From a virus, in IMG/VR virus record IMGVR_UViG_3300001679_000064, positions 1 to 31,200 of that record: a DNA stretch of 31,200 bases. One strand, 5' to 3'. The notes beneath the pieces were generated by a model. It did no database searches. It saw only the letters and a program-made list of their open reading frames with translations, and was not told the DNA's origin. Below are positions 11,296 to 31,200 of the stretch, one piece after another (positions within the stretch are counted from its first letter, which is position 1; every line of letters begins with the position of its first letter). The translations under genes and the position numbers were made by a program.

Positions 11296-11455
11296 GGGGT
11301 CTGTCTGCCGGCAAGAGGTTATCCTTGTGGATATACCGTAACTCACTATCAACAACCACCAATTTAACGTCAGGGGCGCCTGGACAGGACCCGACAACAA
11401 AGCCAGCCATCCCGCCGATAGCGCCAAAAGGTTTTCTAACTCTACATTCCGGCAC
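11282..11455 (-). CDS. Small barrel-like protein, 57 aa, GTG start overlapping dnaE stop
   Basis: The frame starts with GTG at 11455, overlapping the dnaE stop as TAGTG, with AGGAG nine bases upstream, and reads M(V)PECRVRKPFGAIGGMAGF, then VKLVVVDSELRYIHKDNLLPA. The short strands and the ...YIHKDNLLP ending resemble the neighbouring barrel (KKIHKKALEE), so the two may be distant duplicates. An in-frame ATG at 11506 lies inside dnaE and is less likely. Function unknown. Confidence 0.55.
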   Translation of the reverse strand: MPECRVRKPFGAIGGMAGFVVGSCPGAPDVKLVVVDSELRYIHKDNLLPADRPLAGL

Positions 11456-14400
11456 TACGTCAGTCTCCTGAAGCTTCTCTTGATGCTTCGTGTACTGAAG
11501 CCCCACTTCTCATTATATTCTAGGTTCGCAATATATACCTTGTTCAAGGAGATTCTGTCATCTTCTTTTACTCCCCAACATCTGATGTTCGCGTCATATG
11601 AGTTGCTGTCCGTTGTGGAAATTACCCAATACTCTGCGCCATTCTTTGTCTTCTTTACCTTCACTTCGCGGGGAATAAACCAGACCAGTTTTAGGTCCGG
11701 ATCATATTCGCTGATCGGTGGGCAGCCACGAGTCAGCAAGTTGTCTTGAATCTCTTGTGGCATGATGTCGTGAATCGGGAAGATGCCGGTAAGAGATGCA
11801 AAGTGCTCTAGCTTCTCTTCTTCTGAGAAGTCTCCCTCCGGAGCGTAGAGTTCAATGTTGTCTATGAGGTTCTTCTCCTTGCGAGGTCGGTCAACTGCTA
11901 CAGCGGACCAGAAGTGACGCAAGCCGGTGAACCTGTCGTCCATCAGATCATCTAGCGATTTGCTTCGGACCAAAACATCAATAGCCTTTTTGTTGAGTTT
12001 AGAATAAACCATGTCCTCGTTGAACAGGAACTCTTCAATCGTATCAAACGGTCTGTGGTTCAGAATCTGGTCCAATGCGCTGTCGCCAAGACCCTTGATA
12101 CCTGTCAGCGGCTGGATGAGCGTCTTGCTGTCTTCGCTGATTTCCCACACTCGTCCCGAAGTGTTGACACTTGGAGGGGCAATCTCAAAACCAAAAGCTT
12201 TGGCTGTGTTGATTGCTTGTGCCTTCTTCTTTTCTGGCTCTTTGTCCAAGAACGCAGCCATCCATTCAACTGGATAGTAATAGCTCAGCCAAGCGCACTG
12301 GAAGGACACTGCTCCATAAGAAACTGCGTGAGATAAGTTGAAGCCGTAACCCGAGAAGAACTCCATGTTTGCCCACTGTTTGTCAGCGACTGCTTTAGAG
12401 AGTCCGTGCGATGCACATCCTGCGATAAACTTCTTATAGATGTTCTCTTTGACCTTATCTTTTCCTGTTCCCTTTTTCGTTAGAACTTTGCGGAGCAGGT
12501 TGCCTTCGTCAAGAGAGATATCCTTGCCAAGCTTGTGTGCTAGCAATGCTAGCTGTTCTTGGAACACCAACAAGCCGTGAGTCTCTCCGAGCACTTCTTT
12601 GATGATCGGGTGATCATAGTGTACTTGCTCTGGGTTTGTCTTGTTTGCCACGTACATGCTGTGAGCCTTGGCGCTAAGTGGACCAGGGCGGAAGATAGCC
12701 GTGACTGCTGCGAAGTCTAGCAACGATGTGGGCTCTGCTTCTTGGCAGAACCGCTGGGCTCCACCGTTGGTCATCTGGAAGATGCCTGCCCACTTGCCTT
12801 TGTGGAAAACTTCTCGCCAGACTTCTTGGTTATCAAAATCAATCGTATCTGGGTGGAGGTTCTTGTCATAATACTCCCGCACTTGCTGGAACGTTGGCTC
12901 CTCATTGTCGTAATGACGTTTGAGGATATGACGGATCGCTCCGGAAATCATCCGGAGAGTTGACAGACCAAGCAAGTCAAACTTAATGAAGCCGAGTGGC
13001 TCAAGGTGGCGAACGTTTTGACCTTCACTCCATGGAGTCTGGATCACACCGCCGGAGTTAATGAGGGGCATGTGCCGGTCAAGGTTCTCAGCTACAAGCA
13101 CCCCTCCAGCATGCCTGGATATGCTCCGCATGTTGCCGACAAGATTATCAACGTGAGTCTCAATGTGAGGATACTTCCGGAAGAATGCTTGAAGAGTTTC
13201 ACTGTATTCCTTTACTTCGTCAAATGTTGGAGTGTAGACTCCAGCAGTCTGCCCGTGAGCTTTCTTAGCGAGGGGCGTGGCTTCGCTCATCATCACGCCG
13301 GTGACCTTATTGACCTCCATGAATGGCACGTCATAAAACTTGCCGATGTCTTTAATGAGTGAGCGGAGTTGGAGCGTGTTGAAGTTGCTGATTGGGACGA
13401 CCGTTGTTCTCCCCCAGTCTTCGGCTAATTGCTCCTTGAGGATCATTGGCTCCTCAACATCAAAGTCGATATCTGGATAACCAGCGCCGCCCTTTGTTAA
13501 GAATCTCTCAAATTGTAGGCTGTACTTGATTGGGTCAATCTGTGTGATGTCCAGAACATATGACAACAGTGAGCCAGCCGCTGATCCGCGACCAAGACCT
13601 ACCAGCATATCCTCTTGTGCCCGATCACTAATAGCTTTCATCGTCAAGAAATACTGCGCGAAGCCTCGGTCCTTAATGATGCCGAGTTCGTACTTCAGGC
13701 GGTCAACGTATTCCGGACTAGTCAACTCCTTCTTTTGGAGTCCCTTGAGAGCGTCCTGAGTCAGAGCCTGAATCGCCGTCTTATCTTTCGGTACAACAAA
13801 CTCTGGTAAGCGCACTTCGCTGTTTGGGAGGAAACTCTCAACGCGGTCAAAGGCGATGTGATGAGTCCGCTCAATTGAGTCGCGAATAAAAGTATCGTCG
13901 TATTCAATGTTGTGCTTAGCAGAGTGACGTTTGTAACTCTCCCACATCTGGTCGCCGTTCTTTGGGTAGAGTTCCATCCCCACCTCTTCCACTGTCTCGG
14001 GAAGTCCGTTGTCACCTTCGGCATACGATGGAATCTTACCACCCCAACCAATGCGTTTATACATCTCCCGGTCTTTCCATAGCTCGGGGCGGGGGTAGTG
14101 GCTGTCAGCCGTTGAAATTACTTCTACGCCCATCTCCATACAAGCCTGGATGATGAAGTTATTTCCCAGGTGTTGGTCTGCAATATTATTCCACTGGACC
14201 TCTCCGTAAAAGCGATCTCCGAAAATCTCTTTGAACTGAGCGATTGTGTTTTTCATTGCGTCAACAACGTGGTCGGGGCTCTTGTCTCTGTTCCGCCAAA
14301 AGTCCTCAAAGAGGGGACCGGACATGCAAGCACTTGAAATAATCAACCCCTCACTATACTTGTCCAACATCTCAAAATCCATACGCGGATATCGGTAGAA

Positions 14401-14865
14401 GTTTTCTGGTCGGTAACTATCCGAGATCAACTGAAACAAGTTGCTCAGCCCGGTCTGGTTCTGTGCAACCATAACAAGATGGTGGCGCTTGTTGAGGGGG
14501 TTACGCTTCTTACCGCGATTCTCGTCCTCAACGACCATTCCGTATTCTTCTTTTTTCTGGCGCTTGGCATTAGCCTTGTGCTCTTCATACATTGTTCGCC
14601 ACTTACGGTGGGACTTGATGAAGTAGGATTCGCAGCCATAAATAGCTTTGAAATCCTTGCCGGCTTCATGCATCTTCTTCAGGTGTTCTACCTGAAAGGA
14701 CAACCCATTCATGTGACCGTGGTCGGTCAGGGCGTGGGCGTTCATCCCGTTCTCGTAGGCGAAATCCATATGTTCGCCGGGCATTCCCAAGCCGTCAAAG
14801 GGTGAGAGACCAGAGTGGGCGTGAAGACCCACAAACGGGATATTACTAGCGATGCGTTCAGACAT
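11455..14865 (-). CDS. dnaE: DNA polymerase III alpha subunit (DnaE-type replicase)
   Basis: The 1136-aa product is a near full-length C-family polymerase (E. coli DnaE is 1160). The PHP domain has HAH at 15-17 and TDHG at 47-50. The palm has GLGRGSAAGS (423-432) and PDIDFD with the catalytic aspartates at 464-469. The fingers include SGYGFNLSHAVSYGAVSFQ. After the helix-hairpin-helix (GIKGLGDSALDQIL) there is an OB-like C-terminus. It would synthesise phage DNA. No separate epsilon proofreading subunit, clamp or clamp loader is visible in the window; the intact-looking PHP residues leave PHP-based proofreading possible. A strong promoter and leader precede it, and AAAGG stands six bases before the ATG. 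A bacterial-type replicase is uncommon in T4-like phages. Confidence 0.95.
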   Translation of the reverse strand: MSERIASNIPFVGLHAHSGLSPFDGLGMPGEHMDFAYENGMNAHALTDHGHMNGLSFQVEHLKKMHEAGKDFKAIYGCESYFIKSHRKWRTMYEEHKANAKRQKKEEYGMVVEDENRGKKRNPLNKRHHLVMVAQNQTGLSNLFQLISDSYRPENFYRYPRMDFEMLDKYSEGLIISSACMSGPLFEDFWRNRDKSPDHVVDAMKNTIAQFKEIFGDRFYGEVQWNNIADQHLGNNFIIQACMEMGVEVISTADSHYPRPELWKDREMYKRIGWGGKIPSYAEGDNGLPETVEEVGMELYPKNGDQMWESYKRHSAKHNIEYDDTFIRDSIERTHHIAFDRVESFLPNSEVRLPEFVVPKDKTAIQALTQDALKGLQKKELTSPEYVDRLKYELGIIKDRGFAQYFLTMKAISDRAQEDMLVGLGRGSAAGSLLSYVLDITQIDPIKYSLQFERFLTKGGAGYPDIDFDVEEPMILKEQLAEDWGRTTVVPISNFNTLQLRSLIKDIGKFYDVPFMEVNKVTGVMMSEATPLAKKAHGQTAGVYTPTFDEVKEYSETLQAFFRKYPHIETHVDNLVGNMRSISRHAGGVLVAENLDRHMPLINSGGVIQTPWSEGQNVRHLEPLGFIKFDLLGLSTLRMISGAIRHILKRHYDNEEPTFQQVREYYDKNLHPDTIDFDNQEVWREVFHKGKWAGIFQMTNGGAQRFCQEAEPTSLLDFAAVTAIFRPGPLSAKAHSMYVANKTNPEQVHYDHPIIKEVLGETHGLLVFQEQLALLAHKLGKDISLDEGNLLRKVLTKKGTGKDKVKENIYKKFIAGCASHGLSKAVADKQWANMEFFSGYGFNLSHAVSYGAVSFQCAWLSYYYPVEWMAAFLDKEPEKKKAQAINTAKAFGFEIAPPSVNTSGRVWEISEDSKTLIQPLTGIKGLGDSALDQILNHRPFDTIEEFLFNEDMVYSKLNKKAIDVLVRSKSLDDLMDDRFTGLRHFWSAVAVDRPRKEKNLIDNIELYAPEGDFSEEEKLEHFASLTGIFPIHDIMPQEIQDNLLTRGCPPISEYDPDLKLVWFIPREVKVKKTKNGAEYWVISTTDSNSYDANIRCWGVKEDDRISLNKVYIANLEYNEKWGFSTRSIKRSFRRLT

Positions 14866-18814: not shown

Positions 18815-20692
18815 TTAGGTGATTTCACAGCTTCCACCGGCACAAGCTAACTCGCCCTTCAGATCTGTATTATCATCTTCCTCAATGATCTTGGAAAGAT
18901 CAATGCCGACAAGAGATTCCATCATCACTTGATATTTCTCTTTTGAGCAGCCCTCGAAGGGTGCTTGCTTGTAGCTGTGCTCGTTTTCATCGTAAGGGAG
19001 AACAGCCAATCCATTATAGGAGTTGCGGTTATCCCACATCCACTCGCCTGCGTCATCCCACTCGTTTGGTCTTAAGGATACAGTTGCTGAAACGTTGTGT
19101 CCGTTCTGTCCTGTTCTCTTGCCGGGCTTGACCCATTCTTGTGTGATCTTCTTTACTCTCCGTAAAAGCTGGAAGGCAGATTCGGTGCGAAGGATTGAGC
19201 CTTCTGGTGCCTTCTGTGGGACCGAGATAACTGCAGTATCGTGGGGTCGGAAGTATTCATCTTCCACGAGTTCTGGGTGGTGAATTGCTAGGTGCCAATA
19301 AATTGGCTCATTTTTGCCAACTCTGATCCGTCGGATGTAATAATCGTTATGCCAGGCATGGATACCACTGGAGGTGCCGAGGGTCAAACTCGTGGTGCCT
19401 GCTGGTTTAACACAGGTTGTACGGGCAGCCTTGTTGATCTCAATCAGTTGGGCGATGCGAGCATTCTCTTCTTTGACGACATGTGCTGCAGCCGTCAAAT
19501 CTATGTCGTCTTCCAAAACTCGTCCGGATGCAATGCCCGTCATAGATACGCCAACAAGAGCGTCCTTCTCTGTGGTTCGTTGCCAGACTGGGCGGAGATA
19601 GTGGAAGTCCGTGTAACCAGCCTGAAGTGTGCCTATAAACGCTGCGGAGCGTACTCTGTCCTCTAGGTCTCGCTGGTCTTTAACATTGCTAACGTTGACT
19701 TCCGTGAGGTTGCAGAACTGGAATGGTCTGAGTGCGATCTCGCAACACGGGTTGGTGCCCCAGTCTTTATCGTTTGATAAATAGATGCCTGGTTCACCGG
19801 CGTTGGATGCCTCTACTCGCTTCCAGATGTCTAGGAAGAATTCTTTTGTGATTCTGTGCCGCAAAAGCACGGCTGAGTTGTTAGCTCTGCCTCGTTGGGG
19901 ATTTGTCTCCCACCAGTTGCCAGTCTTGCAGGAGAGCATATCGTTGTCGCAAGCTGAGAATAGCGAAATGAGAGCGGCGCGACGGATGCCACCGGCTAGA
20001 ACTGCGTCGGCAATGTAGCACACGATGTCGTGAACTTCAATCGGAGTGAGCTTGTCGCCGTCAGATTTATCTTGTAAAACGCCCTCGACCTTAACGAGGC
20101 ACTCTCTTAACGGCTGTGGTCCTGGCGCTGAGCCGCCAGAGGTTACTAGGCGAGCACCCTTTGGGCGGATGTCGCTGAAATCAAACCGAAGGCGGGAGCC
20201 TCCAAAGAAGTAGCTGCGCACAAGATGTTTTACTGCGTCTGCCCAGCCCTCTATACTGTCATTGATTAAATACCGCCGGGATCGCTCTTGGTTTGGCTTC
20301 CTAATCTCTGGCAGTTGCTCAACGTGATGCTTCTGGACAGAATACCCAACACCTGTGCCGCCAAGGAGCAGGAACATGATCTCACTGAAAACTCTCCAGT
20401 CATCAATGGGTGCGTATGCACAATTGAATACGCGATTGGGAGAGATCTCGATAGGCTTGCCGGCAAATTGCATTGAACGCATTGACGGAAGGACCTTCTT
20501 CTGAAGAACAAAAGAATAAGCAGACACGATCTCTGCCTTGAGGGCTGGGTACTTCTTGATATGCATCTGCATATTCCGAGCTACCAGTTCTTCCCAAGTT
20601 TCGCGGCGGCTCTGTTCCGGTAAGTAGCGAGCATATTTCATATAGACAGTGATGTCTGATAATATCTTATTGGATAAGTCTAGTTCACTCAT
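18815..20692 (-). CDS. Class II (adenosylcobalamin-dependent) ribonucleoside-triphosphate reductase, monomeric type
   Basis: The 625-aa product matches the monomeric B12-dependent RTPR family. Compared with the Lactobacillus leichmannii enzyme the key residues fit: Cys91 (NCAY) for one redox Cys, NPCCE with Cys316 and Glu318 for the thiyl-radical Cys and Glu, Cys327 eleven residues on for the second redox Cys, and the C-terminal pair Cys617-x4-Cys622. KPAGTTSLTLGTSSGIHAWH (429-448) is the substrate phosphate region. It makes dNTPs from NTPs and needs no oxygen or small subunit but does need cobalamin, so the host must have B12. It is shorter than the 739-residue L. leichmannii protein. The start overlaps the helicase stop as ATGA. 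Confidence 0.93.
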   Translation of the reverse strand: MSELDLSNKILSDITVYMKYARYLPEQSRRETWEELVARNMQMHIKKYPALKAEIVSAYSFVLQKKVLPSMRSMQFAGKPIEISPNRVFNCAYAPIDDWRVFSEIMFLLLGGTGVGYSVQKHHVEQLPEIRKPNQERSRRYLINDSIEGWADAVKHLVRSYFFGGSRLRFDFSDIRPKGARLVTSGGSAPGPQPLRECLVKVEGVLQDKSDGDKLTPIEVHDIVCYIADAVLAGGIRRAALISLFSACDNDMLSCKTGNWWETNPQRGRANNSAVLLRHRITKEFFLDIWKRVEASNAGEPGIYLSNDKDWGTNPCCEIALRPFQFCNLTEVNVSNVKDQRDLEDRVRSAAFIGTLQAGYTDFHYLRPVWQRTTEKDALVGVSMTGIASGRVLEDDIDLTAAAHVVKEENARIAQLIEINKAARTTCVKPAGTTSLTLGTSSGIHAWHNDYYIRRIRVGKNEPIYWHLAIHHPELVEDEYFRPHDTAVISVPQKAPEGSILRTESAFQLLRRVKKITQEWVKPGKRTGQNGHNVSATVSLRPNEWDDAGEWMWDNRNSYNGLAVLPYDENEHSYKQAPFEGCSKEKYQVMMESLVGIDLSKIIEEDDNTDLKGELACAGGSCEIT

Positions 20693-22173
20693 GATTTCCT
20701 AGTCTCCTCTGCCTGCTTTTCTTTGAGTTCGCGAAAAGATTGCTTTAGTGATTTCTTAAATGTTGATTCTTCTTTTTTAGCCTCTTCGCGGGTGGCGCGG
20801 TCAGCTTTGAACTTCTTATACTTTGCGCGGAGGTGAGCGTCCTGTTCTTGTTTTGTCTTGGTCACTACCGCGTCAATTGTAGAGTGTTCATCCGGAGCCA
20901 TGACCTTCAGGTGGACTTTGGACGTATCAATCTCCATTGGATATACGATTCCGTCAATGCCGTTGCGGTTCTTCGCGACGAACATCCTGCCGCGGTTCAC
21001 GGTCTTGTCTTCCGTTGTTCTGGAAATTGTGCAGATAAAATCAGCCACGAAACATTTGTTGAATGCCTCGCTAATAGATTCCATAGTAATTACCTCGGCG
21101 TTTAGACCGCTGCGGTTTGTTTGGCTGGCAGTCCAGACAGGGATATCCCAAACCTGACCAATGGCTCTCAACTCCTCGTAGGTGTTCCCCAGAGAGTGGC
21201 GAAGTTCTTGGGATTTGAAGCCGGTTGCAGTTGGGCGTAGAAGGTCAGCATAGTCTACGATAACCATATCCACATTGACCCCTTTCTGTTTCAGCTTTTC
21301 AAGGTGCCCGCAAATCGTCCTCGTTGAGGCGGATTTAGATGGGTACTCTTTAATAATTAGTTGACCAGGGATGTGTTTCACGACTTCTAAGATAGAATCT
21401 TTCTGGGTCATCAACTGACCTAAGTCAATCCCGGTGATGCAAGAATCATAACGCTGACCGACTACCGTGTCTGCTAGCTCTAAAGTATAGTGGACAACCG
21501 TCTTCCCCTTGAGGACAGCATGGGCGCCCAAGTGGACCAGAGCCATTGACTTGCCGACGCCGGTTGGGGCGACGACGACTCCAAGCTCTCGCTTGCCTAG
21601 ACCGCCCTTTGTGATAAGATCGATCTCTTCCCAGTGAGTTGAGACGGGGCTCCTCATCTTAAGTTCAAAGCGGTCTTCAACATCTTTGTGGTAGTCGTGA
21701 CCGTGATCGTTGTCAGCACCGAGATTCATCGCCTCGTTGATAGTCTTTTGAATTTCCTCAAAACTTTGAGTTTGCAGGAGACCGACAGACTTCAGGATAG
21801 CCTCTTTAAGCTTCTGTTTCTTGCAAAAGTCTAAAGACTTCTCCTTCACGTACTCGTCGTCGTCTCCGCTGATCGCATTGCTCTTAACACGAGCAAGAAA
21901 ATCAATGACCTGCTTAATGATACTGTCAGAATAATCTTCGGTCTGGGTCCTCACGACGGAAACCATTGCTTCGTAGGTCGGGTGGGGATAAGATTGTTTG
22001 TGCTGGAAAAGCAAATCTACGAACACTTGCAAATACTTCAGTTCAAGATAGCTAGTGTCAAGGACTTCCTCCATTTGATTCGCAAAGTTGCGGTCAAACA
22101 AAACAGCTTTTACTAGTTTTTCTTGAAATGATTTTCCGAACTTGCTAAACGTATCAAACTGTTGCTCGGTCAT
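20689..22173 (-). CDS. Replicative DNA helicase, DnaB/T4 gp41 family
   Basis: The 494-aa product has an N-terminal helical domain (about 1-150), a linker and a RecA-like core with KGGLGKRELGVVVAPTGVGKS (Walker A 203-209), DMVIVDYADLL (Walker B, Asp307) and WTASQTNRSG with an H3-like Q-T-N-R sensor. RGRMFVAKNRNG fits the C-terminal Arg-finger region of DnaB proteins. The tail is long, basic and coiled (KKFKADRATREEAKKEE...). It would unwind DNA ahead of the DnaE-type polymerase; a primase is not visible in the window. It starts a new transcription unit: a promoter and a terminator lie just upstream. AAAGGA precedes the ATG. Confidence 0.92.
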   Translation of the reverse strand: MTEQQFDTFSKFGKSFQEKLVKAVLFDRNFANQMEEVLDTSYLELKYLQVFVDLLFQHKQSYPHPTYEAMVSVVRTQTEDYSDSIIKQVIDFLARVKSNAISGDDDEYVKEKSLDFCKKQKLKEAILKSVGLLQTQSFEEIQKTINEAMNLGADNDHGHDYHKDVEDRFELKMRSPVSTHWEEIDLITKGGLGKRELGVVVAPTGVGKSMALVHLGAHAVLKGKTVVHYTLELADTVVGQRYDSCITGIDLGQLMTQKDSILEVVKHIPGQLIIKEYPSKSASTRTICGHLEKLKQKGVNVDMVIVDYADLLRPTATGFKSQELRHSLGNTYEELRAIGQVWDIPVWTASQTNRSGLNAEVITMESISEAFNKCFVADFICTISRTTEDKTVNRGRMFVAKNRNGIDGIVYPMEIDTSKVHLKVMAPDEHSTIDAVVTKTKQEQDAHLRAKYKKFKADRATREEAKKEESTFKKSLKQSFRELKEKQAEETRKS

Positions 22174-22228: not shown

Positions 22229-22250
22229 AAAACTCACATTTTTTTGTGAG
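22229..22250 (-). terminator. Hairpin terminator overlapping the end of the exonuclease gene
   Basis: The minus strand has CTCACA (22245-22250), six A, TGTGAG (22233-22238) and then TTTT. The stem includes the stop codon of the exonuclease gene. The stem is only six base pairs and the U-run short, so termination may be partial. Confidence 0.5.
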
Positions 22251-23190
22251 AGTTCAACATCAGCATTAGCTCGTCAATATTAAGCGTACCAATACCGTCG
22301 CGAAGGAGCATCGTCCTAATTTGGGTGCGATTCAAAATGACCCCGTCATTCTGGATCGCGTATTTGAGTTTTTGGACTCCTTGCGAAGATATGGTAGAGG
22401 TATATAGCTGCATGATCTCGTAATTTGATGCAATGATATCCTCACTTTCAAGAACTTTTTGAAATGCCTTGACTTTATTTTTATTATCTTCTGCGTGCGA
22501 CAAAATGTCTTTCAGCACATAGTCTTTGTTTTCCGAAAGGAATGAAAATCTTTTGGAAACCGTCTTAAGCCCAAGACCTTTGACTCCCACAAGGTTGTCC
22601 GACTTATCTCCGACGATGGCTCTTGCCAGTGCAAAATTTCGTGGGTGGATTTCGTACTGCTCAAGGATTTTGTTTCGGTTCAGAACCTCTTCATTCTTGC
22701 CGGGTCTGATCAGCACGGTCTTGTCATCACACAGTTGGATGAAATCCTTGTCCGAAGAGATAATAACTTTTTGCCAATCGGTGTACTCATAACAGTGGCA
22801 CAGCCATGCAATAATATCATCAGCCTCTACGCTCTCTAACATTAATTGAAGCACCGGGAGTTCGTCCAAATATTCTGTCAGCCGGACCATCTGCTGGTAT
22901 TTGTTCTCTCGCTCTTCATCTTCTGTATTGAACTCATACTGCCGGTTAAGCTTTGGTGGCTTTCTGCCGAGCTTATAGTTCTTGTTCTTCTCTTTGCGAG
23001 ACTGGGAGCCACCGGGACCTTCCCAAGCAATGACGACTCTGTCCGGCTTTGCCCGGCGTACCTCTTTTTGGAGGGATCGCATAAATCCAGTCAAGCCACC
23101 GATGGGCTTGCCATTAACGTCCAGTTGGGGGCTCATAACATAGTTTCTGATGAACATATTGGCAGCATCAATGATTAATAATCTCTTCAC
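22234..23190 (-). CDS. 5'-3' exonuclease/flap nuclease (PolI 5' domain or T4 RNase H type)
   Basis: The 318-aa product has the FEN/5' nuclease metal-binding residues: Asp8 in LLIIDAANMF, Glu122, Asp124 and Asp125 in ESVEADDII, Asp147 and Asp149 in ISSDKDF, and Asp195 and Asp198 in VGDKSDN, followed by the helix-hairpin-helix VGVKGLGLKT (201-210). It would remove RNA primers and flaps from Okazaki fragments. I start it at the GTG at 23190, which overlaps the deaminase stop as GTGA with AGGAG seven bases upstream; the longer frame to 23298 lies inside the deaminase gene. The separate PolA-type polymerase lacks this domain, so the pair would together replace PolI. Confidence 0.9.
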   Translation of the reverse strand: MKRLLIIDAANMFIRNYVMSPQLDVNGKPIGGLTGFMRSLQKEVRRAKPDRVVIAWEGPGGSQSRKEKNKNYKLGRKPPKLNRQYEFNTEDEERENKYQQMVRLTEYLDELPVLQLMLESVEADDIIAWLCHCYEYTDWQKVIISSDKDFIQLCDDKTVLIRPGKNEEVLNRNKILEQYEIHPRNFALARAIVGDKSDNLVGVKGLGLKTVSKRFSFLSENKDYVLKDILSHAEDNKNKVKAFQKVLESEDIIASNYEIMQLYTSTISSQGVQKLKYAIQNDGVILNRTQIRTMLLRDGIGTLNIDELMLMLNSHKKM

Positions 23191-23615
23191 GCGACTTCTC
23201 CTGTAAACTCTAGTGTGCCTGTGCCGTAGTCTGTTGTGAAGACTGCTCGCTTCAAGCCGTACCTGTTGATTTGATTCTGGCACATTGTGCAGGGACATGA
23301 CATGCCGGGAGCGCCGGTCTTTCCCTTGCGGGCAACGTAGATGATCGCTCCCCTAAGCTGCTCCTTGTTCTTGACTCTGGCAATGGCGTCCATCTCTGCG
23401 TGGATTGACCGACAAAAGGGTTTCCCGTATTCGTCACTGCCGATCGCGTCGGGATGTGTTTTGTTTCTGTTTCTTCCTACAGACAGGACGCGACCGGCTT
23501 TTACGATCACAGCAGAGTGCTTATATTGAAGGGCTTCACTGTAATTCTCGCCGTCAATGCGGCGAAGTGCTAATCGTAGGTACTTGTTAGGTACCTTTTT
23601 CGGGTCGTACTCCAT
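23187..23615 (-). CDS. dCMP/cytidine deaminase family protein
   Basis: The 142-aa product has the zinc-deaminase signature HAEMDAI with His72 and catalytic Glu74, and SCPCTMC with ligands Cys109 and Cys112. Length and arrangement fit the deoxycytidylate deaminase group, which makes dUMP from dCMP for dTMP synthesis; the lack of the second, structural zinc site of T4 Cd and the compact form leave cytidine or other deaminases possible. With dUTPase and the class II reductase it completes a route to dUMP. AAGGTGA precedes the ATG at 23615. Confidence 0.82.
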   Translation of the reverse strand: MEYDPKKVPNKYLRLALRRIDGENYSEALQYKHSAVIVKAGRVLSVGRNRNKTHPDAIGSDEYGKPFCRSIHAEMDAIARVKNKEQLRGAIIYVARKGKTGAPGMSCPCTMCQNQINRYGLKRAVFTTDYGTGTLEFTGEVA

Positions 23616-23627
23616 AACTCAGTCACC

Positions 23628-24701
23628 TTACTTCTTCTTACCTATCCTACACTCATCCTCTAGAATGTCAAGGATTCTTTTGCGGAAAGGCTTCTCTTTA
23701 AGGAGGTCTTCAAATTCTTTTGATTGGAATTTCTTTTCTTTGCCCGCGATTTGGACTGTATACCAGGCACCTGAGCGACTGCATCCGGGAGTTCCGGCGA
23801 TGGCGTTGAGCCAAGAAGGCTCGTCATTGATACCGACACGATCGTTGGCAAGGTCAAACAAAACCTCAAACTCACAGGTTCTCGGTGACGGACCAAAGCG
23901 AGACTTAATTGTCTTAGCAGAGGTTCGGAAGCCAATGACCTGTTTCTTCTCGTTGCGGATTTCTCCGTTTGCTTTTCCTTTGTGCTGGGTCATCCAAATG
24001 CGAGTAGAGGCGTGATAAGGCAGAGCCTTGCCGCCGGGCTCAACTCGGTTGTCCCCAAACATTACTCCGATATTGGTCTTCAATTGATTTGTGAAAACCA
24101 GAGCAATCTGTGCCTTGCCGAGAGTCTCTGTTACTTTGCGCATTCCTTTTGCTAATGCTTTGGCTGTCAGACCAATGCGGCTGTTGGGGTCATAATCTCC
24201 CTCAACCTCTGCCCTGACCGGTGTGCCGGCAACGCTATCCCAGGCAATACACACAAGGCGATCGGGAGCTTTCTCTCTGATGAGATTAATGAGACGTTCA
24301 ATAGTCTCAAAGACCTCCTCAATCGTTCCTGGCTGAACATACATAAAGTTGTTCTTTGTGTCAAGCCCTAGCTGTTCCATAAACTCTGGGGAGGCTGAAT
24401 TCTCTGTATCAATGTAGATTGCCAGCCCTCCCATCTTTTGTGTGTTCGCTAGAATCTGGGTGACGACAAGGCTCTTACCGCTGGCAGATTCGCCAGCAAT
24501 CGTAGTGAGCTTGCCGACAGGAATCCCACCGTTTCGCCTGTTGGATATAAGATAATCCAAAAGCGTTGAGCCGGTAGGAATCCAAGTCTTCACATCTGTG
24601 GGGTTGTCCCCGTGCAGATCATAAGCAATAGTCTCTTTAGCTGCCTTGTTTAATTCGCTGCGCAAATCATTTACAAGGCTAGATGTAGACGGCTTTGTCA
24701 T
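23628..24701 (-). CDS. recA: RecA-type recombinase
   Basis: The 357-aa product has RecA features: GGIPVGKLTTIAGESASGKS (Walker A 70-77), YIDTENSASPEFMEQLG, AWDSVAGTP for Walker B, then FTNQLKTNIGVMFGDNR and EPGGKALPYHASTRIWM, which correspond to the NQ-x-R motif, loop L1/L2 region and GG-x-ALKFYAS motif of bacterial RecA rather than T4 UvsX. The first Walker A residues GESASGKS depart from the usual GPESSGKT. It would drive recombination and recombination-dependent replication. GGAG lies six bases before the ATG at 24701, and a hairpin precedes it. Confidence 0.92.
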   Translation of the reverse strand: MTKPSTSSLVNDLRSELNKAAKETIAYDLHGDNPTDVKTWIPTGSTLLDYLISNRRNGGIPVGKLTTIAGESASGKSLVVTQILANTQKMGGLAIYIDTENSASPEFMEQLGLDTKNNFMYVQPGTIEEVFETIERLINLIREKAPDRLVCIAWDSVAGTPVRAEVEGDYDPNSRIGLTAKALAKGMRKVTETLGKAQIALVFTNQLKTNIGVMFGDNRVEPGGKALPYHASTRIWMTQHKGKANGEIRNEKKQVIGFRTSAKTIKSRFGPSPRTCEFEVLFDLANDRVGINDEPSWLNAIAGTPGCSRSGAWYTVQIAGKEKKFQSKEFEDLLKEKPFRKRILDILEDECRIGKKK

Positions 24702-24762: not shown

Positions 24763-25554
24763 CTACGCCAGTAGATCATCAAAAGCGGTTTCAATGTCTG
24801 AAACGCCCTCTAGATTATTGTCACCCTTGTCGGCAGTTGCGGTCGCGACTGTCGTGTCGTTACTGTACCGGGTGGTTTCGGCGGTGTTGCCGGTGGACTC
24901 TGAGTCTCCGAGCGTATCATTGAGAACCTTTTCACAGTCCTCGTATGATGCGACATCAAAGACATCTTCTGCGTTCTTGAGGCTCTCTAAAAGAGTGTTG
25001 ACCTCATCTTCCGTCGCAGCGAGTGGGCTGGTTCGGCGCATTGGACGTACGTCCGTCGTTGGGAACTGTTGACCGGACTTCTTGCCGTAATCAATACGAA
25101 TGTCCGTGCCCTTCTCCGTGTCCGTGACGTCGCCGTACTCTGGGTCCATCACCACATCAAGCAATGCCTGATAAGTGGTGCGTGAGAAGCCCCACCAGCG
25201 AACGCCCTTGTCCTCTTCGCCACGAACGACGATTGGAGCAAAGATTCGCATCTTAGGCCAGAAGCGCTTGGCTGCTTCCTTGGAGCCGTCAGTGCCCTCG
25301 TTCCAGAGGCGGGTTCCCCACTCTGCGATAGGATCGGCGTCGCCATTAGTCCGCGGGCTCAAAACAGTGGTCTTGCCCTCTGCTCCCATGCCGTAGTGGT
25401 AATACGCCTCAAAGAATGGATCGCCATTCGGCGGACATACCAAACGAATCTGGTGTGTGCCCTCAGTTGGCTTCCAATAGTTTTCTGAGGAGTCTCCCCC
25501 TCGGTTGGTCAAAGCAGCATGCTTCGCCCGCATCTTAGTAAGATCAATACCCAT
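24763..25554 (-). CDS. Single-stranded DNA-binding protein, T4 gp32-like
   Basis: The 263-aa product has a basic N-terminus (MGIDLTKMRAKHAAL), a core with NYWKPTEGTHQIRLVCPP and FFEAYYHYGMG, WGFSRTTYQALLDV in the middle, and a long acidic C-terminus ending DIETAFDDLLA, the gp32 layout: cooperativity region, OB core, acidic protein-interaction tail. In T4 gp32 a zinc site (H64, C77, C87, C90) lies after the core strand; here the equivalent segment reads LSPRTNGDADPIAEW, without cysteines, so zinc binding seems lost. I start it at the ATG at 25554, six bases after AAGGAG. It covers ssDNA at the fork and is expected to bind helicase, RecA and polymerase. Confidence 0.82.
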   Translation of the reverse strand: MGIDLTKMRAKHAALTNRGGDSSENYWKPTEGTHQIRLVCPPNGDPFFEAYYHYGMGAEGKTTVLSPRTNGDADPIAEWGTRLWNEGTDGSKEAAKRFWPKMRIFAPIVVRGEEDKGVRWWGFSRTTYQALLDVVMDPEYGDVTDTEKGTDIRIDYGKKSGQQFPTTDVRPMRRTSPLAATEDEVNTLLESLKNAEDVFDVASYEDCEKVLNDTLGDSESTGNTAETTRYSNDTTVATATADKGDNNLEGVSDIETAFDDLLA

Positions 25555-25590
25555 TATATTCTCCTTTTCTGGTTTGTTGACCGTGCATAT

Positions 25591-25618
25591 ATTGTAGCAC
25601 ACCATTAAGGAATGTATA
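25591..25618 (-). promoter_or_regulatory. Possible ssb promoter TATACA-N16-TACAAT
   Basis: The minus strand has TATACA (25613-25618), a 16-bp spacer and TACAAT (25591-25596), four and five of six consensus bases. The predicted start near 25584 leaves a leader of about 30 nt before the SSB start, like the promoter at 6268-6295. Confidence 0.45.
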
Positions 25619-25672: not shown

Positions 25673-26149
25673 TTACTCAGAATCGGAGGGGGCTGCGGCT
25701 TCTGGCGAAGGGTCGGCTTCGGGTGCTGGACCGTCTTCTATCTTGAATATCTTAGAGACGCTGATATTGTGGATTTTGAGGTCATTGCCGGCAGTCAAAA
25801 GGATGTTGTCCTGGTAGGTTTCCCAATTAAGCTTGAGGTCCTTGCCCGTCCTGCCGTCATGCTCTAGGGCTACGGCTTTATTGAGGGCGTTGATGGTATA
25901 TAATGTGTTTGTCTGCTTCTTGCGGTGAACGCGGATGGTGTAGAGGCGCGGGTTAAACGTGCGGTCTCTGCTGACGACGGCGTTGTACGTCAAGAACTTA
26001 GTGTCGGGATCATCTTTGTCTTCCAGCAAGAAAATGAAACTGTTCGTAAGGTTGATGTTGGTTGCGATAAATTCAACCTCTGCAAATATTTCTTCTTCCG
26101 TCATCTTCTTCAAAAAAGATGCGAGTAATACTCCGCGAACTTTGTTCAT
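25673..26149 (-). CDS. Conserved phage hypothetical protein, 158 aa
   Basis: The product has an N-terminal helical part, a beta-rich centre (SFIFLLEDKDD, FLTYNAVVSRDR, NPRLYTIRVHRKKQTNTLYTIN), then KLNWETYQDNILL and an acidic, Pro-rich C-terminus (PAPEADPSPEAAAPSDSE). The RLYTIRVHRK...TNTLYTINALN stretch is a pattern I associate with marine T4-like phages, without a known function. Its position between the tubulin-like protein and SSB suggests a replication-region role. The ATG at 26149 has GGGAG ten bases upstream. A 46-bp inverted repeat lies just ahead of it. Confidence 0.65.
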   Translation of the reverse strand: MNKVRGVLLASFLKKMTEEEIFAEVEFIATNINLTNSFIFLLEDKDDPDTKFLTYNAVVSRDRTFNPRLYTIRVHRKKQTNTLYTINALNKAVALEHDGRTGKDLKLNWETYQDNILLTAGNDLKIHNISVSKIFKIEDGPAPEADPSPEAAAPSDSE

Positions 26150-26168: not shown

Positions 26169-26214
26169 GTTGAATAAGTAGTTTTGAGTTAACTCTTTGA
26201 ACTATTTATTCAAC
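26169..26214. repeat. 46-bp inverted repeat with nested palindrome
   Basis: Arms of 15 bp (26169-26183 and 26200-26214) are complementary except for one position. The 16-bp centre contains a perfect 10-bp palindrome, GAGTTAACTC (26186-26195). The stop codon of the tubulin-like gene (26210-26212) is inside one arm and the next gene starts 20 bp away. No U-run follows on the minus strand, so it is not a standard terminator. It could be an RNA hairpin protecting mRNA, an operator or a cruciform binding site. Confidence 0.8.
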
Positions 26215-27067
26215 TTTCCAGAAGAGGCTGTATTTTGGAGGAATATGCGAGACATAGTACCATTATGGCTTCATGCTTTGTGGAGTAAACAGAGAAACTT
26301 GTTGAGACTCCCGCTTCCCTATGATCTTTCACATGTTTCTTGATTCTCTTCATCAAAGAGGCGTCGCTCGCAAGGGCCTCTTCTGGTATCCCATAGAAGA
26401 AGTGAATGTCCCGAGAATCTTCTAAAGGGAAGAGCATTTTAATGTCTTGTTGGTCCTCATCTAGAGAAGAAATGCCGAAGGTTATAATCTTTGATATGTT
26501 TCGTGGCTCTATTTTACTCGCCAAAATTGGGGCAGTGTGGTTGAAATAATTAACCATTGCAACGACATAAGAGACGAAATGAGCGATGCTATGCTCGTAC
26601 TTTTCAATTGAGACATCCCCAACGAGGGTTTCCACCGTTGATTTGCTGACTAAATAGATGCCTGAGAAGACCGCGCTGCGAGCATATTCTTGCAAAACGT
26701 TAAAGGCGACCTTGTCATCCCTTTTTCTTGTTTCGGAACTCATTGTACGATCTGGACAGACATACAGGATATTTAAGGTTGAGTCCTTTACGGTCTCCAG
26801 TATCTTAAGGATGACTCCTGTTGTTGGGTCTCCTCCTTCGGTTATCAGTAATACTGTGTCTTTTTTCTTGATGCCCTTAAGATATATCTCAATCTCTTTC
26901 TGATCTATGCTCTCTTCGTACTCTTTCATGTCATCGCACGAGTCTAGAGAAAAGCTGCCTCGCTCATCCGTATCTGTGTCAAATTGATAGATTCTGTATT
27001 CTGGGTGTTCTGTGAGTTGTTCTGCAATTGCGCAGCCAAGCTTCCCCACCCCAATGATCTTATCCAA
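26210..27067 (-). CDS. Divergent tubulin/FtsZ-like protein candidate
   Basis: The 285-aa product begins with a glycine-rich turn, IIGVGKLGCAIAEQL (4-18), followed by YRIYQFDTD (24-32), like the first Rossmann strand, loop and helix of tubulin/FtsZ. VLLITEGGDPTTGVILKILE (72-91) resembles the FtsZ/tubulin signature region (GGGTG-T/S-G), with GGDPTTG at 78-84; LNILYVCPDR (98-107) fits the next strand and VLQEYARSAVFSGIYLVSK (124-142) the FtsZ 'L.....D.LI.I.N' region. These are at the places expected from the fold. The start is a TTG at 27067, overlapping the PolA-like stop, with GGAG ten bases upstream. If right, it may organise phage DNA like PhuZ. The signature loop is degenerate, so GTP binding is unproven. 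Confidence 0.45.
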   Translation of the reverse strand: MDKIIGVGKLGCAIAEQLTEHPEYRIYQFDTDTDERGSFSLDSCDDMKEYEESIDQKEIEIYLKGIKKKDTVLLITEGGDPTTGVILKILETVKDSTLNILYVCPDRTMSSETRKRDDKVAFNVLQEYARSAVFSGIYLVSKSTVETLVGDVSIEKYEHSIAHFVSYVVAMVNYFNHTAPILASKIEPRNISKIITFGISSLDEDQQDIKMLFPLEDSRDIHFFYGIPEEALASDASLMKRIKKHVKDHREAGVSTSFSVYSTKHEAIMVLCLAYSSKIQPLLES

Positions 27068-28280
27068 TAGTTATTTGCTCCATAGAACCTAGTGTCTCGC
27101 CCTTACTTATGTTGACTTCAAACTGTCCAAAATTAGTTGAAGCCATTAATGCTAGCAGTGACTTAATTAGGTGTTCATCTTCGTTTTTCATATCAATTAC
27201 AACGGCATCGTGGATCAAAAAGGCAATCTGCGAGCCGTGACTCCTAGTTCTAAGGAGATAGTCAAGCTTTAGAGCCTGCTTTAGAGTCAGTTCTGCGGCG
27301 GTTGACTGCACGAGGTAGTTCAGGGCGTGATGCCGGCTTGTGTCGCTTATCTGCTTCCCAAATGGCGTTGTAACTGTGTTGCCAATCCAGTGTTTTTCCA
27401 GCAAACTATCCTTCTCGTAGAACTTCTCTAACTTCTGGACGTCTTCCTTGACGACTGCCGAGCGTGATCCGTATAGCCAGGCGAAGAAGGCTACCTTGGC
27501 AGCGTTGCGATCAGTGATCTCTGAGAATATCTCTTCAATGTGGAAGTTGTGTACGTCGCCGGTTGGCTGCTCTTTCCCGAGAAGCCCCAAGAGGGTCCTC
27601 ACTTCGGCACCGTTGAAGTCTAGTTCTAAGAAGTAGTCGTTTGTCGGTCTGACTGCCGTTCTCATTGTTTTGCTCATTGTCAGGATTGGGAAGCTACCCT
27701 TCTTTGTGGTCAGTCTTCCGGTCTTTGTTCCAAATTGATTATATTTGACATATTTTTCTGATTCTATTATTGTGTTCGCAAGGTTTGCGAGCTTCTTAAC
27801 TGATTTGTAGGATGAGATGGTTCTCATGTCTACATTGACCTTCCGATGGGAGAGGTCCTCTAGCATCATTGCTACGCCTCTGTGGAATCCGTATCTTTTT
27901 GGCTTTGGCTTAGTTTTCAAGATGTGCTCGCAGATGCGGTTCTTCACTTCACAGAACTCCATCAGAAAACGCTGAGGGACAAGATCAAAGAAGCAGTTTT
28001 CGTTGGTATCAACTCTTGCGAGCAACAAAGAACGCTTAAATGCTTGAATCTTCTTGGCAACATCGGACCAGTCATCTTTGAGGAACTCGGGGATGTTGTC
28101 GTCAAGTGTTCCACCCTCAAGATAGAGAGAAACATACTCAACGTCCATATTACGTAAATACGATGAGTACTTCCAAGTGCTGCTTAGATTTTTAGGAAAC
28201 TCTTCCAAATCAAAGATAAGCTTGTTATCGGTATAGATTCCTACGCACTCGGTTTTGTCGTCTAGAGTCTGAAAGATCAT
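27060..28280 (-). CDS. Small PolA-family DNA polymerase (palm/fingers only)
   Basis: The 406-aa product has A-family polymerase motifs: TKTGRLTTKKGSFPIL (185-200), motif A LDFNGAEVRTLL with Asp221, Glu226 and Arg228 (220-231), motif B RNAAKVAFFAWLYG (258-271), NYLVQSTAAELTLKQAL (321-337) and motif C LIHDAVV with His357 and Asp358 (355-361). In standard PolI motif C is HDE; here the Glu is Ala359. The 3'-5' exonuclease domain is absent or reduced to a short N-terminal region without DEDD residues, so no proofreading is expected. As DnaE is also encoded, this may act in gap filling, Okazaki maturation or lesion bypass. The ATG at 28280 overlaps the preceding gene by 56 nt. Confidence 0.82.
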   Translation of the reverse strand: MIFQTLDDKTECVGIYTDNKLIFDLEEFPKNLSSTWKYSSYLRNMDVEYVSLYLEGGTLDDNIPEFLKDDWSDVAKKIQAFKRSLLLARVDTNENCFFDLVPQRFLMEFCEVKNRICEHILKTKPKPKRYGFHRGVAMMLEDLSHRKVNVDMRTISSYKSVKKLANLANTIIESEKYVKYNQFGTKTGRLTTKKGSFPILTMSKTMRTAVRPTNDYFLELDFNGAEVRTLLGLLGKEQPTGDVHNFHIEEIFSEITDRNAAKVAFFAWLYGSRSAVVKEDVQKLEKFYEKDSLLEKHWIGNTVTTPFGKQISDTSRHHALNYLVQSTAAELTLKQALKLDYLLRTRSHGSQIAFLIHDAVVIDMKNEDEHLIKSLLALMASTNFGQFEVNISKGETLGSMEQITIG

Positions 28281-29736
28281 CGCGTCCCCTATCAGACCTT
28301 ATTATATCGCCTACTGTGTCCAATGTTAATGGCGCGACGTCATAAGGTCCTATGAATTCTTCCTGCAGAACTCTGAGCGCTCGGGAATAGTTGTTAGAAG
28401 TGCTGAGATTGTATACATTCATCGCCCTCTGTATCTGCTTCTTCATTAAGTGTCGGTCACGGCGTGGATCACGCTCTGAGAGTCTCGCTGCGTAGAATGC
28501 CTTCAGTTTCCATCGTTCACCGAACTTGGCGTGGAAATCATCTCTTGTTATCTGGGTGCGCTCAACGATCTCTACCGGAGGGATACAATTGACATTCACA
28601 AATCGTTCGCGGATACTTACAACTGGAGTTGCTGCGACGTATGCATTATAAAAAGACAGGAGATGCTCCTGTAGGACGTCGGCATCAGTGCTCCAAGTCT
28701 CAGTATATGCTGTTGAGAACATCGCCTCAAAAACTTGATTCTGAGTATATCCCCGAATCTCCTGATACTCTGGGTATCCTGGAACCGGGTCGCCATTCTC
28801 GTCAAAATGATATGCGATGCGGCGGTAGATTGATTCCATTCCCGGAACCTGTGAGAAACCGAAAGCCTCAGGAAGGATTTCCGGCAACACCAACCCAGGA
28901 TCACACTCATCAATTTCAGGGGTGTTGTCAAACTGGTCAATTGGGACGCCGTGCATATATTCCTGCATTGCTGGACTTCTTAGGTCTGCCACCAGACGCC
29001 ACGGGATGTTCTTATCTATCATGAACCCGTACTCGGCAGCGATGTGTGCTACAAGTAGGAAGTTGTCGTCATAATATTCATACGATTTCTGAAAATCGTC
29101 GTCGTACTGACCGTCTGCCATCTCTATCATCAGTCCTGAGCATAGTGGCGACATATGACCACACTCTAAGAATCCACTGAGGGTCAGTGGTCCGACGCTT
29201 TTAATTACGTTGTCGGCGTACTCGTCAAACAGGCTCAGAAAACTGTTCATTCCCCTTATCTCACCATCTCTGCCGGCGGTTGGAAGGAATACTGAATCAA
29301 ACACTGGATAGACTAGCGTTCTCATGTATTCGTCGTATGCCGCGGTTGGCGGGTCCCAGGCTTTGTAGACTTCTGCTTTCGCCCATGGGCTGTCTTTGAA
29401 AAGGATGTTGTCGTTTGCTAATTTTCTGATCTTCTCCGAAAAGTCTCTCCAGGCATCGGCAACGAAGTTGACGGCATATTGAGTTTCGCCGGCGGTATAC
29501 CGAAGTGGCTTTAGATGCTTTTGGTCAACTAATACGACGTTCCCCTTTGTGCTGACGGTTCCGTAGAACCTGTCGGCATTCCAAGTCTCTATGAAGTTCG
29601 GGATTAGGTCGTCAGGGAACACGTCAGAGTCGTACCTCTGCCTCTCGCTGAATATAATGTCTGCCGGCGAAGAGTTGGAGCCGTAAGCATACATTTCTGG
29701 GCGAGTGGTGTCCACCCTCTTGTTTTGATTAGCCAT
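28225..29736 (-). CDS. Probable virion structural protein, 503 aa
   Basis: I do not recognise a domain with certainty. The product is soluble, without signal peptide or membrane span, rich in aromatic and acidic residues (KSYEYYDDNFLL, ECDPGLVLPEILPEAFG) and ends in an Arg-rich tail (RRQNRVRRNLYR). FYGTVSTKGNVVLVDQKHL and YAVNFVADAWRDFSEKI are of the kind seen in marine phage tail or neck proteins. It overlaps the hub-like gene upstream by 8 nt, which suggests co-expression with structural genes. The start MANQNKRVDTTRPEM at 29736 is likely. The structural call rests mainly on size and neighbours. Confidence 0.5.
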   Translation of the reverse strand: MANQNKRVDTTRPEMYAYGSNSSPADIIFSERQRYDSDVFPDDLIPNFIETWNADRFYGTVSTKGNVVLVDQKHLKPLRYTAGETQYAVNFVADAWRDFSEKIRKLANDNILFKDSPWAKAEVYKAWDPPTAAYDEYMRTLVYPVFDSVFLPTAGRDGEIRGMNSFLSLFDEYADNVIKSVGPLTLSGFLECGHMSPLCSGLMIEMADGQYDDDFQKSYEYYDDNFLLVAHIAAEYGFMIDKNIPWRLVADLRSPAMQEYMHGVPIDQFDNTPEIDECDPGLVLPEILPEAFGFSQVPGMESIYRRIAYHFDENGDPVPGYPEYQEIRGYTQNQVFEAMFSTAYTETWSTDADVLQEHLLSFYNAYVAATPVVSIRERFVNVNCIPPVEIVERTQITRDDFHAKFGERWKLKAFYAARLSERDPRRDRHLMKKQIQRAMNVYNLSTSNNYSRALRVLQEEFIGPYDVAPLTLDTVGDIIRSDRGRDDLSDSRRQNRVRRNLYR

Positions 29737-31200
29737 TAGAGTGGGTCCTGTGCTCTAGCTTGGCATCTATTGTTGTGGTATACCCGCGATTTGAGATGCG
29801 GTTTGAGGACCTGACGACCCTATAATACCCTCCGAGCGTCAGAATCTCGTTTGCCATCGTTCCCAGCGCTGCACGGCTATCGACATATATCATATCACCG
29901 TTGCGGTGAATGGTATTGCCAACCATCTCAATGCTGATCTGTTGGGGTTGGATGAGGGCTTGATAGTTTGATGCAGCGGTCATTCCCTCAATGTTCATTG
30001 CTTGGAAAAACGGAGTGTCGTCCTTTGAGAAATTGAAGTTTTTTGCAATGCCTCTGTCGGCTCCTAAGACATAATGATATATTCCGTTTTTCTCATCTAT
30101 GATGCGATTGCCGCCGGAAGGGGTGCCCATCTGCTTGGCGTACAGAAGATAATAGCTCTTGATCGGTTTTGATGTTGAATATATTGTGTCCTTCAGGTTT
30201 TTGGCAGCCTTCTTGAGGTCTTTGGCGTAGATGGTTGACCAGTCGCCTTCTTTGCCATATATCTTTTCATACGTCATATAGAGAGTATAGTCAAACGAAA
30301 TCCTCATTTTGTAGTCGGTGACGCTATTCAAGAGACGGGTCACTGCCGTAAGAAGGCTGTCGAAGAAGGATCGGAATGGGTATTCATCTAAGTCGCGAGC
30401 GACGACGTTGTCAAACAAAAATTGGGATAAGTAGTCGAGTGAGATCGGGATGTCATAGATAGAACCATGGGTGATCGCGCCGCCTTGGGAGCGGTTGCCC
30501 GTAGAGAAGCCCTCTAGCCCTACCTTCCCTGGAAGGAACGTGCCGAAGATAAATCCAATGTCTTCTGGCATGCCGGCATTTTCCATGGCTGCCAAAACAA
30601 CATCTCCGAAGCGCACGAATGGGATTGCCATTGACTCACCAGGCATTGCGTCGGCGGTGGTGCCGTCGGTTGAGCGGGTGAAGGTGCTTCGCTCTCTCTT
30701 GACCGACTCGTCCTTCTTTTCTGTTGATGTCTTCTTTGCCCTCTCTTTGGCGAGGCGGTCACGGGTTTTATCGGCTATTTGTTTGGACTCTTTTCTATTG
30801 TAGAAGGATATATCAATCTGACCCCCTTCTGACTCTTTGGCGTATGCGACGAAGACCTTGCTGTGCTTAGACCCGTCCTCTCCGCCAAGAAGATTAGTCA
30901 TAAGTCCTGAATATCTCTCAGCCTGGATCGCCTTCCTGGCTCGCGAATAAGCCTCGTCAATCGTCGCTAGGTTGACCTTAAGGAGTTCTATCTCGGTCGC
31001 AGGTCCTTTTCCATGAGAAGTCTCCTTCCGGAATGTCATTAGCTCTATCTTCGCGCTTAAAAACTCTGCCTCGTTAGTTAGTCTGTCCAATCGCACCGGC
31101 ACGTTTGTCTTTGAGATAGCGCTGCCGAGGAAGGCTGTCTCACCGGCGCTGCGGTCAAAGGAGTTATGACTAATCTTCTTGGCGGAGAGGACGGGTCTAA
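29729..31200 (-). CDS. Probable baseplate/tail-hub protein, 5' end cut by the window edge
   Basis: The frame stays open from the right edge of the window; a GTG at 31102 is an internal Val, not needed as the start, so at least 490 residues are coded. The C-terminal 90 residues read QQISIEMVGNTIHRNGD, MIYVDSRAALG, then LGGYYRVVRSSNRISNRGY and TTIDAKLEHR. This is the beta pattern of tail hub/baseplate proteins (gp27- or late-control-D-like): a short 'x-GNT-x-x-R-GD-x-I-x-V' strand pair followed by 'GGYY-V-x-x-x-x-N-x-x-x-x-G-Y-T-T'. The middle has KDEEKKAKT-rich charged helices (EERAKK, KKDESVKRE). The call is moderate; the N-terminus is not visible. Confidence 0.5.
   Translation of the reverse strand, partial: RPVLSAKKISHNSFDRSAGETAFLGSAISKTNVPVRLDRLTNEAEFLSAKIELMTFRKETSHGKGPATEIELLKVNLATIDEAYSRARKAIQAERYSGLMTNLLGGEDGSKHSKVFVAYAKESEGGQIDISFYNRKESKQIADKTRDRLAKERAKKTSTEKKDESVKRERSTFTRSTDGTTADAMPGESMAIPFVRFGDVVLAAMENAGMPEDIGFIFGTFLPGKVGLEGFSTGNRSQGGAITHGSIYDIPISLDYLSQFLFDNVVARDLDEYPFRSFFDSLLTAVTRLLNSVTDYKMRISFDYTLYMTYEKIYGKEGDWSTIYAKDLKKAAKNLKDTIYSTSKPIKSYYLLYAKQMGTPSGGNRIIDEKNGIYHYVLGADRGIAKNFNFSKDDTPFFQAMNIEGMTAASNYQALIQPQQISIEMVGNTIHRNGDMIYVDSRAALGTMANEILTLGGYYRVVRSSNRISNRGYTTTIDAKLEHRTHSNG

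Follow-up and report, generated by a model that had tools for sequence, protein, structure and literature searches.

The locus analysed here raises the question of what a 285-residue protein with tubulin-like features does between the polymerase and single-strand DNA-binding protein genes of an uncultured virus, and whether it could work as a tubulin at all. The stretch of DNA under study, called the window throughout, is a fragmentary virus record of 31.2 kb, which stops 4 kb upstream of the gene, here named TUBL. The open reading frame that an earlier note had reported, made from the letters of the window, is indeed present with the length and position given there, on the minus strand and with a TTG start (see the table). 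Homologues with 46–86% identity were found at 42 IMG/VR loci, all of them from uncultured viruses; the start (TTG, ATG or GTG followed by Asp-Lys) is kept in most of these loci, a Shine-Dalgarno-like motif lies 5' of the gene in 34 of them, and dN/dS amounts to 0.03–0.10 where measurable, indicating strong purifying selection. Together with the constant gene order, these features argue that TUBL is a real and constrained gene and not a chance open reading frame.

As far as the contigs reach, all 42 loci share the order p457 – p503 – polA – TUBL – p158 – gp32-like SSB – UvsX – (dCMP deaminase) – 5'-3' exonuclease – DnaB – ribonucleotide reductase, with TUBL always placed between polA and the SSB/UvsX genes. 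The neighbours named in the earlier note, a PolA-type polymerase, an SSB (gp32-like) and a RecA (UvsX/RecA), were thus recovered in the window, and the unusual location of a tubulin within a replication operon holds across the relatives. The 8-nt overlap of polA and TUBL, seen in the window and in most relatives, suggests translational coupling. Motif C of the PolA-type protein reads HDA, the usual family A form being HDE, and the same phage also encodes a DnaE-type polymerase (11455–14865). The product of p158 was considered as a TubR-like adaptor; its model is mixed α/β with no significant PDB match and lends this idea no support.

Table. Features of the window around TUBL, with positions counted from its first nucleotide
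Feature	Position	Strand	Remark
TUBL, putative pseudo-tubulin, 285 aa, TTG start	26210..27067	minus	ORF call, structure model, hhalign
Shine-Dalgarno-like GGAG	27078..27081	minus	10 nt before the TTG start of TUBL
T1 loop codons, residues 6–12, GVGKLGC	27032..27052	minus	all 35 relatives keep G6, G8 and G11
Degenerate T4 loop codons, residues 77–84, EGGDPTTG	26816..26839	minus	G78, G79, G84 invariant; P81 in 33/35
Core helix H7, residues 154–176	26540..26608	minus	DSSP of the model
T7/H8 position, residues 177–193	26489..26539	minus	lacks a conserved acid and, in the model, a helix; comparatively variable
p503 and p457 (503 and 457 aa), upstream genes of unknown function	28225..31102	minus	syntenic in relatives
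PolA-type DNA polymerase, 406 aa	27060..28280	minus	last 8 nt (27060–27067) shared with the TUBL start
p158, downstream neighbour of TUBL	25673..26149	minus	occurs in at least 596 viral stretches; model lacks a clear PDB match
gp32-like single-strand DNA-binding protein	24763..25605	minus	
UvsX/RecA-type recombinase	23628..24701	minus	
dCMP deaminase	23187..23615	minus	
5'-3' exonuclease	22234..23298	minus	
DnaB-type helicase	20689..22173	minus	

A structure model of TUBL, built from an alignment of 35 sequences, reached a pLDDT of 91.6 and a pTM of 0.91. Its secondary-structure elements follow the order E-H-E...H7...E-E-H-H-E-E of the tubulin/FtsZ monomer. In a Foldseek comparison with the PDB, FtsZ and TubZ ranked at the top (E 5e-12, TM 0.64–0.73) and the best rows belonged to these two families throughout, while among predicted viral proteins the annotated FtsZ from an uncultured phage came first (E 5e-11). 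Structural alignment with VIA-align gave Z values of 24.9 for CetZ (264 residues, 3.1 Å), 23.8 for TubZ (281 residues, 3.4 Å), 23.6 for FtsZ (range 22–24) and about 22 for eukaryotic tubulin; the alignments comprise 264–281 of the 285 residues at 3.0–3.8 Å, and values within 1 Z count as tied. The match takes in the N-terminal GTPase domain, the core helix H7 and the C-terminal domain (residues 1–285), a coverage that a generic Rossmann protein would not give. The predicted structure is thus almost certainly a tubulin/FtsZ fold, and the structure prediction and the alignment with FtsZ and TubZ, both proposed in the earlier note, extend its suggestion over the full length, including the second, C-terminal domain.

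On the sequence level the kinship is far less apparent. The TUBL family has no convincing match in Pfam, PHROG or the PDB, and PF00091 did not hit any of 35 members at E up to 1. A profile comparison was carried out with hhalign on a broad TubZ set comprising six Bacillota plasmids, phage G, a 241-kb phage and the TubZ of the TUBL clade itself; it returned a match of 84% (score 48.6, E 7e-6) that runs colinearly from T1 through H7 and exceeds every control, with 200 column shuffles scoring at most 31.1 and reversed and unrelated alignments 14–18. With an alignment restricted to the clade's own TubZ, the comparison stayed below significance (1.8%). Since fold and sequence agree, TUBL shares common descent with the tubulins. 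No relative of TUBL emerged from the plasmid search, where a hit at E 0.5 falls in a helicase, or from a scan of bacterial-genome contigs, which was pattern-based such that distant relatives could escape it. Among annotated phages, HTVC033P gave a hit at E 0.8, which lies within a protein of 1393 aa and is due to chance.

Working tubulins carry the signatures GGGTG[T/S]G in T4 and NxDxx[D/E] in T7 (PMC12583498). In the 35 relatives the T4 loop of TUBL instead reads GG[DE]Px[ST]G; its outer glycines are kept and its centre lacks the G-T-G of the tubulin signature, so that the loop is degenerate as originally described. The T7 signature is likewise missing, with no conserved acid at residues 178–192; in the hhalign columns I186 and R189 stand opposite the two T7 acids of TubZ, and the T6 asparagine is replaced by Lys or Arg in 32 of 35 members. 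Residues 177–193, where FtsZ and tubulin have helix H8, form no helix in the model and are variable (24 of 269 segments of 17 residues are as variable); the model stops at its last strand, with no C-terminal tail. Conservation is seen in T1, T4 and a PEYR turn specific to the family, while T2 and T6 vary. The motifs singled out in the window copy (G-V-G-K-L-G-C, FDTDTD, GGDPTTG) are accordingly of unequal standing: GxGxxG(C) and GG[DE]Px[ST]G are invariant or nearly so, whereas FDTD is not conserved, position 30 being Asp in 18 and position 32 in 13 of the 35 relatives. Judged by these residues, TUBL is very probably a catalytically dead pseudo-tubulin which does not hydrolyse GTP, although it may still bind phosphate or a nucleotide. 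Motifs and model further suggest that the normal contact on the T7 side has been lost; because the T7 acids and the helix at the H8 position are missing, ordinary head-to-tail self-assembly with GTP turnover is unlikely.

A more conventional tubulin is present elsewhere in the related phages. When four long TUBL contigs were searched with PF00091, each proved to encode a separate protein of about 378 aa, which passes the cut-offs of both PF00091 and PF22453 (TubZ-like C-terminal domain), matches the TubZ of B. cereus at 9e-12 and keeps both T7 acids without exception in the alignment. Its gene sits with the packaging genes, a T4-like terminase and a portal following within a few kb. Fifteen contigs carry TUBL and TubZ, on the same strand and 28.6–33.7 kb apart (distances computed by hand from the match positions). 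TubZ was found, at a distance of about 31–34 kb, in eight of the eight TUBL contigs that extend at least 34 kb upstream of TUBL, and contigs with only one of the two genes end before the other is expected, two of them being borderline at ~28 kb. The phage of the window presumably has a TubZ as well, the window ending long before its expected position. TubZ shows at least 84% identity and TUBL 46–64% to the window copy; these very different rates give no sign of tight co-evolution. Type III partition systems have tubR upstream of tubZ and tubC iterons beside it. A scan on the TubZ side showed no iteron array, and the small flanking genes had no PHROG match, no TubR-type gene being recognised among them.

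Several features of the relatives may be recorded in their own right. Their TubZ (e.g. L045:1399-1480, L217) begins with an acidic extension, VDIPTLDIEDYDPDLNEE, a candidate adaptor-binding peptide; its IEDYD core recurs even in the 241-kb phage, whose TubZ is 50% identical. The cluster on the TubZ side of L074, L099 and L107 encodes many small proteins with the N-terminal motif M-K-I-T-K-S-x-L-R-x-I-I-K-E-E; some of the p158-bearing outgroup contigs, namely L145, L153-L155, L158 and L162, carry M-I-K-L-K-D-I-L in its place. The motif resembles a capsid-targeting peptide of the T4 type, which would make these proteins a family of internal proteins. In addition, a single 1050-aa protein (L074:3081-6233, L107:1806-4958, L099:4332-7484) combines SbcD and SbcC profiles, as tested on the L074 copy, and resembles a fused gp47-gp46-like nuclease.

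The phyletic distribution served as a control. Only the few closest among 80 examined p158-bearing viral stretches (of at least 596) also carry TUBL, including the very diverged L142 with the T4 loop GGEHISG; the other p158 loci inspected have different genes upstream of p158. In phages without TUBL among the outgroup loci L145-L166, the slot ahead of p158 is frequently taken by a Nudix-like protein or by one of 490–920 aa starting MNISKVINDV or MDIKQIISNA. Twelve p158 contigs of up to 213 kb, in which, L142 excepted, no TUBL match lies near p158, yielded no TubZ, and nine of the twelve had no PF00091 match; this set contains no positive, the same queries being positive in the TUBL clade. The 241-kb phage contig encodes a 50%-identical TubZ and no detectable TUBL, PolA, SSB or p158, from which it follows that TubZ of this type can do without TUBL. 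Cultured relatives identified by their terminase (Flavobacterium immuto phages, Microcystis phage Mel-JY01) gave no TUBL or tubulin match. Where this could be checked, TUBL has so far occurred only together with TubZ.

These observations are best accommodated, at a probability of roughly 45%, by the assumption that TUBL is an accessory subunit which does not hydrolyse GTP and works together with the TubZ of the same phage, be it as a minus-end cap, nucleator, anchor or regulator. In this arrangement TUBL would use its nucleotide-side (plus-end) face, where T1 and T4 are kept, to bind beneath a TubZ subunit at the latter's T7 face. Its own degraded T7/H8 face would accept no further subunit in the usual way, which would leave TUBL as the minus-end cap, nucleator or anchor, in a manner reminiscent of γ-tubulin. 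Made together with PolA, SSB and UvsX, it might tie TubZ filaments to the replicating phage DNA. The conservation of the nucleotide face is only partial, since T2 and T6 vary there. The partnership is favoured by the eight-of-eight co-occurrence and by the next-nearest p158-sharing phages, which have neither gene. Against it, TubZ and TUBL are not adjacent, and the shared ancestry of one phage clade would explain their co-occurrence without any interaction. The more specific picture of a two-component machine, in which a GTPase-dead tubulin from the replication operon nucleates or anchors the minus end of a conventional TubZ motor filament and, as a viral counterpart of γ-tubulin, links that filament to replicating phage DNA, appears unlikely as it stands.

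Other readings start from the same features. TUBL might be a tubulin-fold accessory of the replisome that never polymerises and serves as a scaffold for PolA, SSB or p158, an unlikely proposal which has in its favour the strict synteny (polA upstream with its overlap, p158, SSB and UvsX downstream), the loss of the catalytic and H8 features and the conservation of PEYR. It fits less easily with the p158-bearing phages that lack TUBL, and wherever PolA and SSB of this type are shared TUBL is always present, which leaves no separating case. Rather unlikely, too, is a role as decoy for host FtsZ, in which TUBL would dock on FtsZ via its retained nucleotide-side face and block or cap the protofilaments of the Z-ring, halting division during infection. 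Small phage proteins that inhibit FtsZ are established, as exemplified by Kil of phage lambda (PMC3961180) and Gp0.4 of T7 (PMC13423816). A subunit that has a good longitudinal face on one side and a degraded one on the other would cap FtsZ, and TUBL resembles FtsZ in structure about as closely as it does TubZ. However, the known FtsZ inhibitors are small proteins without an FtsZ fold, nothing links TUBL specifically to host FtsZ, its gene is located in the replication operon, and the sequence profile matched TubZ, in a comparison made with TubZ profiles.

The reading of the earlier note itself, an independent cytomotive tubulin of the PhuZ or TubZ kind which polymerises despite an altered active site, has on its side the complete tubulin fold and the T1 and T4 glycines under selection; the loss of conserved T7 acids, H8-position helix and C-terminal tail, the replaced T6 asparagine, and the conventional TubZ already present in the related genomes make it decidedly improbable. 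The better candidate for a cytomotive filament is this TubZ of the related phages, not TUBL. The T7 mutant D190A of PhuZ forms non-dynamic filaments (PMC4244570), such that TUBL may still form static polymers. Membership of another Rossmann family (e.g. NAD-binding dehydrogenase-like), with likeness to tubulin in the N-terminal half only, had also been considered, and weak Pfam hits point that way (NAD_binding_2, E 0.16; TrkA_N in three relatives, best E 0.039). It is contradicted by the tubulin match over residues 1–285, including H7 and the C-terminal domain, with Z values of 22–25, and by the profile link to TubZ, and is hardly credible. The check for a missing tubulin topology or a significant match to such a family left the tubulin interpretation standing.

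Of the known systems compared, the TubZ of type III partition systems of plasmids and phages (e.g. B. cereus, 4ei7) shares with TUBL the fold over 281 residues (Z 23.8) and the profile match over the GTPase domain and H7; TUBL differs by the absence of conserved T7 acids, of a helix at the H8 position and of a C-terminal tail, at 10–15% identity. The archaeal CetZ proteins (3zid, 4b45) reach the highest structural Z, 24.9, close to TubZ; they have an intact GTP site, which TUBL lacks, and are ~14% identical to it. FtsZ shares the fold (Z 22–24), whereas TUBL is devoid of the T4 signature, of NxDxx[D/E] and of a PF00091 match. PhuZ of the phiKZ-type jumbo phages is likewise a phage-encoded tubulin fold; TUBL differs in its degenerate T4 and T7 and in the T4-like TerL of its clade, and does not match PHROG 4733 'tubulin PhuZ'. 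The likeness to γ-tubulin is one of function alone and lies in the proposed use of one longitudinal face at the minus end of a filament; γ-tubulin binds GTP and works in a ring complex. The FtsZ-like gp138 of Bacillus phage G is a distant relative of the clade's TubZ; for TUBL, phage G gave no match even with the E limit at 10.

Across the jumbo phages, two different members of the tubulin family have been distinguished (PMC7824862), and TubZ (c-st) and PhuZ each come from a different phage (PMC7950403). The open-access literature yielded no report of the TUBL family, of a paired pseudo-tubulin or of two tubulins in one phage genome, and nothing on plant ARC3 as a comparator. While the reported phage tubulins TubZ and PhuZ are single, recognisable GTPases, TUBL escapes Pfam and PHROG, adjoins replication proteins and co-occurs with a second tubulin. 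At minimum, it represents a new, strongly diverged branch of the tubulin superfamily and one half of a testable protein pair. If TUBL and TubZ do cooperate, the phage would encode a filament with a dedicated pseudo-tubulin partner, and the pair would offer a simple system for the question of how nucleating or anchoring subunits evolve from a polymer subunit.
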